Positions 7,938 through 9,651 of a stretch of 25,774 nt of DNA are shown here, one piece after another. Position numbers and translations under genes: made by a program. Position 1 is the first letter of the stretch. Every line of letters begins with the position of its first letter. The stretch spans positions 1 to 25,774 of the IMG/VR virus record IMGVR_UViG_3300028027_000215; one strand, written 5' to 3'. The notes under the pieces are model-generated. The model did no database searches and was not told the DNA's origin. It was given only the letters and a program-made list of their open reading frames with translations. The DNA comes from a virus.

Positions 7938-8738
7938 CTAATCGTTCTTTAAGGAGTTCCCATGCAATTCCAGCCACTTGTGGAACTTGTCCGTTTCCAA
8001 TGGCTTTAAGTCTGTCCACCCTAAAGGCCACCCCATCAACCATTCGTAAAGGCTCGGATTGATTGAAGATGGAATGTAAGTCCCATTTTTGACTGCATTT
8101 TTGTGCGCTCCTGATCCGCCTGCGTTCCCCCCCCCCCTGATGGAGTTGTTGGAGTCGGCCATATTGTTTCCCTGCGTTTTTTCAGAGCTTTCCGACTGTT
8201 GCTTCCACCATCCCTCCCTGTTGTTGGGGTATGAAAGAAGTTCTCTCCGTTTGGCAACAATCCAAATTCTTTCTCTGTGATGTTTAGCTCCAATGTCTGA
8301 AGCTCCAATGACTCCCCACGCAGCATCAAACCCAATCTCGGCCAACTGTCCAAGAACTGTTCCGAGTCCTCTATGAACGAGCATTGGCGAGTTTTCCACA
8401 TAGACGAATCTTGGTCGTATCTCGCAAATGATACGAGCCATTTCTTTCCACATTCCTGATCTTTCACCATCAATTCCTGCTCCTTTTCCTGCAGCGCTGA
8501 TGTCTTGGCATGGAAATCCGCCTGATACGACATCAACAATTCCTCTCCAAGGCTTTCCATCAAAGGTTTGAACATCATCCCAAATTGGGAAAGGCGGAAG
8601 AAGTCCATCATTTTGCCTGGCGCACAATACGCTTGCTGGGTATGCTTCCCATTCAACGGCACAGACTGTTCGCCATCCGAGCAAATGTCCCCCAAGTATT
8701 CCTCCACCAGCGCCTGCGAAAAGAGCCAACTCATTCAA
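7938..8738 (-). CDS. DNA (cytosine-5) methyltransferase
   Basis: This 266-residue enzyme should transfer a methyl group from S-adenosylmethionine to C5 of cytosine in a specific site, probably protecting phage DNA from host restriction. The motifs run in order: LALFAGAGGG (I, residues 4-13), AVEWEAYP (II), WDDV (III), VVSGGFPCQDIS (IV, catalytic Cys77), VYVENSP (VI, Glu115), GAKHHRERIWIVA (VIII, about 150-162), a short variable target region, and EWLMGWPLGWTD (IX/X region). It is small for the family, as phage versions are. Upstream in this frame is a stop, so the only start before motif I is TTG at 8738, with GGAGG seven bases upstream. No partner restriction gene is seen. Most of its length is also open in the +1 frame, and an 11-G run lies in the target region. 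Confidence 0.93.
   Translation of the reverse strand: MNELALFAGAGGGILGGHLLGWRTVCAVEWEAYPASVLCARQNDGLLPPFPIWDDVQTFDGKPWRGIVDVVSGGFPCQDISAAGKGAGIDGERSGMWKEMARIICEIRPRFVYVENSPMLVHRGLGTVLGQLAEIGFDAAWGVIGASDIGAKHHRERIWIVAKRRELLSYPNNREGWWKQQSESSEKTQGNNMADSNNSIRGGGNAGGSGAHKNAVKNGTYIPSSINPSLYEWLMGWPLGWTDLKPLETDKFHKWLELHGNSLKND
8036..8734 (-). CDS. Overprinted +1-frame protein inside the methyltransferase gene (WPTP-type)
   Basis: An ATG at 8734 lies four bases inside the methyltransferase and directly after the previous gene's TGA. It opens 232 codons with no stop in the +1 frame. The product contains LSQFGMMFKPL (48-58), EELLMSYQADFHAKTSAL (64-81), SFARYDQDSSMWKT (102-115), SWPRLGLMLRGE (130-141), FGLLPNG (157-163) and IWPTPTTP (191-198). 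I recall exactly this string of motifs (SFARYD..S.WKT, TWPRWGMM.NG, LWPTPT) from phage proteins that occur alone or at the end of cytosine methyltransferases. The match to a protein family suggests a real overlapping gene rather than a chance open frame. Another reading is that database entries of this type are themselves frames of methyltransferase genes. Function is unknown. Confidence 0.6.
   Translation of the reverse strand: MSWLFSQALVEEYLGDICSDGEQSVPLNGKHTQQAYCAPGKMMDFFRLSQFGMMFKPLMESLGEELLMSYQADFHAKTSALQEKEQELMVKDQECGKKWLVSFARYDQDSSMWKTRQCSFIEDSEQFLDSWPRLGLMLRGESLELQTLELNITEKEFGLLPNGENFFHTPTTGRDGGSNSRKALKKRRETIWPTPTTPSGGGGTQADQERTKMQSKMGLTFHLQSIRAFTNG
8127..8137 (-). repeat. Homopolymer of 11 G on the coding strand
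   Basis: Eleven C on the plus strand (11 G in the mRNA) fall in the target-recognition part of the methyltransferase, where they encode Gly residues in both open frames. At 11 G both frames read as described. One extra G would join the +1-frame N-terminal part to the methyltransferase C-terminus (SLYEWLMGWPLGW). One fewer G would give the methyltransferase the +1-frame tail. Poly-G tracts of this length are known slippage switches in bacterial phase-variable genes. Assembly error at the homopolymer is possible. Confidence 0.85.
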
Positions 8739-8887: not shown

Positions 8888-9651
8888 GCAACCTTCCTTT
8901 TCTTATCTCGCTGATCCAAAATAAACTTCTTCATTTCAAAATAGCTGTTAAAACGAGCTTGGCGAGGATCTCCGCCACATTCAGCTCTGTATGCCTCCTC
9001 AATCTGTTTATCTGTTCCTAAAGGCATTTCTGTGGCTTTCTGAGCTGCTTGAGTAGCCCAAGAAGCCTCAAATGAGCGCCATCCCTTAAACATGATTGTT
9101 TCCAATACTTCTGACAAAGGCATTTTTGCTAAGTTAGCTTCTTTTACTAACCTTGTAAGAACTCTGTCTGTAATAGGAGCTTTAAGTCTTTTTCTATAAA
9201 TTAAAAAATCATTCCATAAATCATCAGACACCCCTTCAGGGGTTACGACTTTAGGAGTAGTTTTATTATGGTTCTTGGTTAATGGTTCTTGGTTCTTGGT
9301 TTGCATTGGGGAGTGATTAGGGGGGGTATTAGGGAGGCTATTGCTACCCTTATGCCACCTTAATGCTGCGCCTTTGCGACCCCCATCCTTCATGGCTTTG
9401 TATTTGGCTATTTCCACATCAGCTCTTTTGTTATGCCAAGCACCATTCTCTTGAACAAAGAACTCATGCAACAAACTGCCAACTATTTCAAAACTAGACC
9501 TTACCTTACGAGCCAGCTTTGCCGTATCTTTAAAAGGTTCTTCAGTTTGGTAATAAAGGTCAATCATGCGCCTGTAAGCCAAATCTTCCTCATCTGTTAG
9601 ATGAGAGGTATGGCTTAAATAATCCCCAATATGAAATGGGTAAAAATTCAT
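8884..9651 (-). CDS. DUF1376 (YdaU-like) replication protein
   Basis: This 255-residue protein starts MNFYPFHIGDYLSHTSHLTD, then EEDLAYRRMIDLYYQTEEPF, the signature of DUF1376 (PF07120), a winged-helix domain found in phage replication initiators. After about residue 100 comes a low-complexity Asn/Pro/Gln/Lys linker (to about 136). A C-terminal helical domain follows (GVSDDLWNDFLIYRKRLK, then LETIMFKGWRSFEASW), the type seen at the end of phage replication proteins. No helicase or loader gene is adjacent, so host helicase loading is likely. The linker DNA carries short direct repeats, as in lambda O. The start has AAGGACT upstream and follows the Cro-like gene by two bases. Confidence 0.85.
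   Translation of the reverse strand: MNFYPFHIGDYLSHTSHLTDEEDLAYRRMIDLYYQTEEPFKDTAKLARKVRSSFEIVGSLLHEFFVQENGAWHNKRADVEIAKYKAMKDGGRKGAALRWHKGSNSLPNTPPNHSPMQTKNQEPLTKNHNKTTPKVVTPEGVSDDLWNDFLIYRKRLKAPITDRVLTRLVKEANLAKMPLSEVLETIMFKGWRSFEASWATQAAQKATEMPLGTDKQIEEAYRAECGGDPRQARFNSYFEMKKFILDQRDKKRKVA
9270..9301. repeat. Three iteron-like direct repeats in the replication gene
   Basis: GGTTCTTGGTT occurs at 9270-9280, 9284-9294 and 9291-9301, the last two overlapping by four bases. They encode the KNQEPLTKN part of the DUF1376 protein's linker. Lambdoid phages place origin iterons inside the initiator gene's linker region, so these may be binding sites for the protein itself. The alternative is plain low-complexity protein coding. 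Confidence 0.5.
9308..9337 (+). other. G-rich tract next to the iteron-like repeats
   Basis: The plus strand has GGGG (9308-9311), a run of seven G (9320-9326), GGG (9332-9334) and GG (9336-9337) within 30 bases, beside the direct repeats. Four G3 blocks could form a quadruplex (loops of eight, one and five bases; the first is slightly long). It falls in the same linker-coding part of the replication gene. Confidence 0.4.

Follow-up and report, generated by a model that had tools for sequence, protein, structure and literature searches.

A hypermutable and probably phase-variable poly-G tract in a nested, putative two-chain C5-cytosine methyltransferase gene of phages

The DNA analysed here (the window), a virus record 25,774 bases long, contains P22-like portal and Terminase_3 genes. 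It also encodes a 277-aa phage protein (22073-21240, minus strand) with a weak C-terminal match to the SET domain (PF00856, E 9.5e-5). Two overlapping reading frames were found on the minus strand: D (8738-7938, 266 aa, TTG start), the methyltransferase frame, and ALT (8734-8036, 232 aa, ATG start), a WPTP-type frame in the +1 register. A Shine-Dalgarno-like sequence, GAGGAGG (8752-8746), lies 7 nt 5′ of the D start and 11 nt 5′ of the ALT start, and this single site could, judging from its position, serve both frames. Both are crossed by the eleven-guanine run reported in the preliminary description (G11 on the coding strand, C11 on the plus strand, 8127-8137), which falls in the linker of D and in the target-recognition segment of ALT. 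No other G or C run in the 25.8-kb window reaches 8, the next longest being a G7 at 9320-9326, and the longest run in 779 kb flanking 178 related loci is G10; the tract is thus far beyond chance.

D matches PF00145 (E 1.4e-32, residues 4-192) and phrog_363 (E 4.8e-58), and the C5 catalytic motifs I-VIII all lie in its frame, with GGFPCQD, ENSP, and RERIW present. ALT matches phrog_1008 (E 4.5e-14), and its conserved target-recognition part (FFHTPTTG..WPTPTTPS) occupies 8239-8138 on the minus strand, immediately 5′ of the tract. Past the tract, the frames of the window contig are exchanged with respect to those of its in-frame relatives. The motif-IX-like tail of ALT, EWLMGWPLGWTDLKPLE (8045-7995, minus strand), is read in the frame of D, ALT ends early, and the proper C-terminal part of D is located in the third frame (8126-7918, minus strand), with motif X (GNGQVP) at 7998-7981 and the stop codon at 7920-7918. 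In in-frame relatives, motif X (GN..VP) is part of the D chain, which consists of motifs I-VIII and X without IX; the D of the window shows the same composition only once the shifted tract is allowed for. Between motifs VIII and X, D appears to be mostly linker. Its start is ATG, GTG, or TTG in 158 relatives, except for 13 genes without a start at that position, for which upstream in-frame starts exist.

Translation of the window locus with 8 to 14 G revealed that the outcome depends on tract length modulo 3. At 9 or 12 G, counted after the preceding A, D continues into ..RVDRLKAIGNGQVPQVAGIAWELL.. (motif X) and ALT into EWLMGWPLGWTDLKPLE, both being restored together. At 8, 11, or 14 G, D takes on the EWLMGWP tail, ALT terminates prematurely, and motif X is left without its chain in the third frame, while with 10 or 13 G, ALT gains the motif X tail of D, and D receives a short end in the ALT frame. 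The recovery of both family-typical ends by a single indel speaks for two genes at this locus. The window, with its 11 G, thus appears to represent a shifted state in which both chains are already off-frame. These translations bore out the earlier proposal that a one-base change swaps the C-termini of the frames 8738-7938 and 8734-8036, but they required the layout to be redrawn. The tract does cross two overlapping frames, whereas the target-recognition (WPTP) segment and the EWLMGWP ending belong to ALT, partly the reverse of the first reading. The 266-aa frame had been taken for an intact methyltransferase with its own motif IX/X region, which cannot be maintained, since EWLMGWPLGWTDLKPLE is the family tail of the +1 frame and motif X lies in the third frame. 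The predicted loss of that region at 10 G is therefore moot, the region being already lost at 11 G. At 12 G, the WPTP-type protein does gain the EWLMGWP tail, as in full-length relatives, although the tail is its own and not that of the methyltransferase.

More than 200 related loci were obtained by ALT-based and D-based searches of IMG/VR. Among 178 distinct genes, 49 G runs of at least 8 were found in 150 kb of gene, compared to nine in 779 kb of flanking sequence, a roughly 28-fold higher density, and one of the nine (at locus L058) in fact falls in an ALT frame. C runs of at least 8 were absent from the 178 genes, the tracts being confined to the coding strand. Tract lengths range from 8 to 15 G across the family and, unlike those in the flanks, peak at 9-10 with G7 nearly absent. 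The tracts are located at about five sites in the gene, near positions 1-17, 45, 248-255, 498-504, and 597-606. Most relatives have no tract, indicating that switching is not a family trait. A PAPS-reductase-like gene (SFSGGRTSAYML..LEAGGGQLP) close to the methyltransferase also contains G9 tracts at two loci (L180:1618 and L194:3358), and poly-G slip sites in these phages may extend to further genes.

Rates of frame shifting were derived from pattern scans, as D- and ALT-based searches favour full-length matches. Shifted frames were found in 15 of 65 genes with a tract and in 2 of 74 without (Fisher p = 4e-4), a control scan, which targeted the ordinary motif near position 250, being pooled with the tract scans for this count. 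The contrast is conservative, because L283 and L286, two further tract genes, shift at position 45 but were scored as normal. Shifts were seen in both directions, and at the tract position of the window all shifted members join D to the tail of ALT. An in-frame locus with G8 (L274) and two shifted loci with G9 (L261 and L263) are otherwise identical over ~1 kb, and a shifted G8 contig (L286, with which L285 was also compared) is 99.8% identical to six in-frame G9 contigs. Four identical loci, all shifted, came from four assemblies (L307, L311, L318, and L327), and two further sets of shifted states (L304/L317/L324 and L315/L323) were likewise repeated across assemblies; in all of these cases the samples are possibly related. 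A second frame change, further 3′ in the methyltransferase gene than that at the tract, was observed in L304 and L298.

The slip-site behaviour anticipated in the preliminary description is therefore seen in relatives, which carry 8-15 G and include near-identical phages one G apart. A fixed or interrupted tract, which would have spoken against it, was looked for in the relatives, and variable length was found instead. A homopolymer of hypermutable length within a coding region (G11 here, 8-15 G in the family) is characteristic of phase variation, as are one-G differences that change the frame on identical backgrounds, which were observed in close relatives of the window's phage. These findings are best read as a hypermutable, and probably phase-variable, tract in a putative two-chain C5 methyltransferase of phages.

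Neutral hypermutability is a serious rival to selected switching. The tract would then be real and variable but a mutational by-product, G runs expanding by slippage wherever glycine is acceptable to both frames, and transient broken alleles would account for the shifted copies. Glycine is encoded by poly-G in whichever frame it is read, and glycine-rich loops (e.g., AAGKGAGI) contain several of the tracts; the predominance of tract-free relatives and a shifted share of about a quarter at most of the tract genes also agree with this explanation. The flanking genes of the same phages are, however, nearly without such runs, the length distribution peaks rather than decays, and the tracts arose at about five separate places, so that a mere by-product seems possible but rather unlikely.

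Errors of sequencing and assembly are common at long G runs, and the 11 G of the window contig might be such an error for a true 12 (or 9) G; both frames would then be intact, and the nested gene would be real with no switch at this locus. Tract-bearing relatives are mostly in frame (50/65), and in two near relatives (L002 and L004) the contig ends 18 and 7 nt, respectively, before the tract, in agreement with an error. In other members, however, the same shifted length was independently assembled up to four times (L307/L311/L318/L327, L304/L317/L324, and L261/L263), and identical backgrounds carry an in-frame length in some contigs and a shifted length in others, arguments that do not extend to the contig of the window. 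An error at this position is considered unlikely. Programmed slippage by the ribosome or polymerase, which would yield D, ALT, and fused chains in a fixed ratio tuned by tract length, has precedents in prokaryotic frame transitions at homopolymers through ribosomal frameshifting and transcriptional realignment (PMC3711429), and fused products would be open for either slip direction. Most relatives, however, have both frames intact without a tract, which makes slippage unnecessary for either chain, and the position of the tract is not conserved; this mechanism is improbable.

The existence of a second gene was examined across the family. Profile searches of forward frames found D and ALT both full length in nearly all of the more than 200 loci, those fetched with D only included. 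ALT is open in all 158 distinct intact genes, and its ATG is kept in every one of them (158/158), whereas synonymous-codon shuffling of D gave a mean of 5.9 ALT stops per gene and left 0.09% open. Third bases are frozen at some invariant four-fold sites of D, which agrees with a constraint from ALT. As the 158 genes are related, 52 disjoint close pairs were used as well; codon-position counts over all pairs, which ignore relatedness, were kept as support only and replaced by this test. Within the target region of the 52 pairs, the synonymous share of the changes is 66% for ALT (expected, 35%) and 8.8% for D (expected, 21%). In the tail, synonymous changes are enriched in both frames (1.81-fold in ALT, 1.58-fold in D), while in the N-terminal part enrichment is limited to D (2.29-fold versus 0.83-fold for ALT). 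The same pairs revealed no purifying selection on the N-terminal half of ALT other than stop avoidance, with 15 ALT-stop-creating changes compared to 108 expected in the N-terminal part. That ALT is untranslated, its open frame a shadow of the codon constraint on D, would account for most of the conservation in the N-terminal half but is very improbable given purifying selection on ALT only in the target region, the avoidance of ALT stops, and homologues that are separately annotated overlapping genes or in-frame parts of single-chain enzymes. These comparisons of coding sequence indicate that the C-terminal half of ALT is a selected protein and that its N-terminal half is at least kept open.

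The same +1 frame, whole or from about residue 70 on, is present inside C5 methyltransferases of named phages, prophages, and plasmids, with hosts or sources including Salmonella, Acinetobacter, Pseudomonas, Klebsiella, Stenotrophomonas, Sulfitobacter, Bacteroides, Microcystis, Leptospira, cyanobacteria, and an archaeon. The annotated frame is usually D, sometimes ALT (phPA-G, SOVA965), and in one case both (‘g55 internal gene’, Paenibacillus phage Shelly). The methyltransferase copy of an E. coli prophage (L449:2501-3262) has been annotated as a pseudogene containing an internal stop, and a methyltransferase on a Paenibacillus polymyxa plasmid (L447:666-2156) contains two LNPxWVECLMGFP tails in the +1 frame, as if its target-recognition part were duplicated.

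In overlapping methylase pairs of mycobacteriophages, the second chain is matched by the ALT profile (Firecracker gp5, E 5e-22; Palestino gp77, E 7e-19), as are single-chain enzymes (Daenerys gp70, E 2e-7; phage B22 gp50, E 5e-5). In the latter, the match lies in frame behind the catalytic domain, in a segment ending EWMMG[WL]PxGW, and the EWLMGWPxGW tail of ALT is homologous to this equivalent part. The enzyme thus occurs in three layouts, as a single chain, as a pair of chains that overlap briefly, or as two fully nested chains. The single-chain gp50 of Propionibacterium phage B22 (L451:159-2258) has a long, intein-like insert that splits the catalytic motif region (GGSPC..CQDLS). Fully stand-alone ALT genes were not clearly found, and the named cases examined overlap a methyltransferase frame; gp3 of Gordonia phage Ali17, considered as a stand-alone ALT, proved to be a short C-terminal piece. 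When D-ALT composites were searched against Pfam, the match still stopped near motif VIII and did not reach the ALT-derived motif IX. AlphaFold modelling of ALT alone (131 homologues) gave low confidence and no PDB match.

Lee, Kam and Shaw are said to have described in 1995 that the chains of M.EcoHK31I come from overlapping frames, with the small chain nested in the other frame. The larger chain of this enzyme (YGGCCR) contains motifs I-VIII and X and the smaller chain motif IX (PMC3404938), the same division as that between D and ALT, in which the IX element is motif-IX-like; the likeness is one of motif layout. The target-recognition domain of M.EcoHK31I is, however, predicted in the larger chain, whereas the corresponding region here is conserved only in ALT, and since purifying selection on it is seen in ALT only, membership of the exact M.EcoHK31I subtype is not claimed. 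ALT also differs in starting 4 nt after D and spanning nearly the whole gene, and in belonging to phages without a visible partner endonuclease, some of which have poly-G tracts. In M.AquI, an alpha and a beta chain likewise form one C5 enzyme, but motif X is found with IX in the small chain (PMC3404938), while here X stays in D. The Firecracker gp6/gp5 and Palestino gp78/gp77 pairs have the same relative frame order, but overlap by only ~170-210 nt, have motif X in the second chain, and contain no poly-G tract. In bacterial phase-variable type III mod genes, the length of a poly-G or poly-C homopolymer likewise sets the methyltransferase in or out of frame (PMC3711429), whereas here a phage C5 enzyme is affected, two nested chains are hit together, and tails are exchanged and not only truncated. 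The hidden HNH element of phage ShiLan (PMC11855218) was considered as a precedent, but represents another kind of overlap. Divided motifs in two-chain C5 enzymes and phase variation at poly-G tracts are both familiar; no earlier description of the two together in phages, recurring at several sites within a single gene, or of a nested phage C5 pair with a poly-G switch, was found in the open-access literature searched.

With moderate confidence, we propose that the locus is a nested gene for a two-chain C5-cytosine methyltransferase, in which a slip at the G11 tract exchanges both C-terminal parts and switches methylation off, while the reverse slip restores it. D would be the alpha-like chain, providing catalytic motifs I-VIII and X, and ALT, starting 4 nt later and using the same ribosome-binding site, would be a beta-like and required second subunit, providing the target-recognition segment and the motif-IX-like end. 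Replication slippage on the G run would shift the frame of both chains at once. At a length off by one, motif X and parts of the small domain would leave their proper chains, and the shifted forms would be inactive; the opposite slip would restore both chains, making the change reversible within a population. If 11 G is the real state of the window phage, it would produce a catalytic chain with the tail of ALT, a truncated ALT, and a motif X out of frame. Such switching may be selected, a possible benefit being mixed methylation states in the face of hosts with different restriction systems.

Homopolymer-slippage phase variation is a textbook bacterial trait. We advance more tentatively, as a plausible idea that falls short of probable, the broader view that environmental phages have repeatedly evolved poly-G contingency switches in a nested, dual-coded two-chain methyltransferase, a slip exchanging both tails and thereby diversifying methylation and restriction evasion within a population. 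A long dual-coded gene (~260 codons in both frames) is present in hundreds of phage contigs, its second frame usually unannotated, and methyltransferase genes of this kind should be annotated as encoding two proteins. The locus also supplies natural allele pairs one G apart, and recurrent phase variation in a phage modification gene, if true, would make epigenetic bet-hedging on the side of the phage testable.
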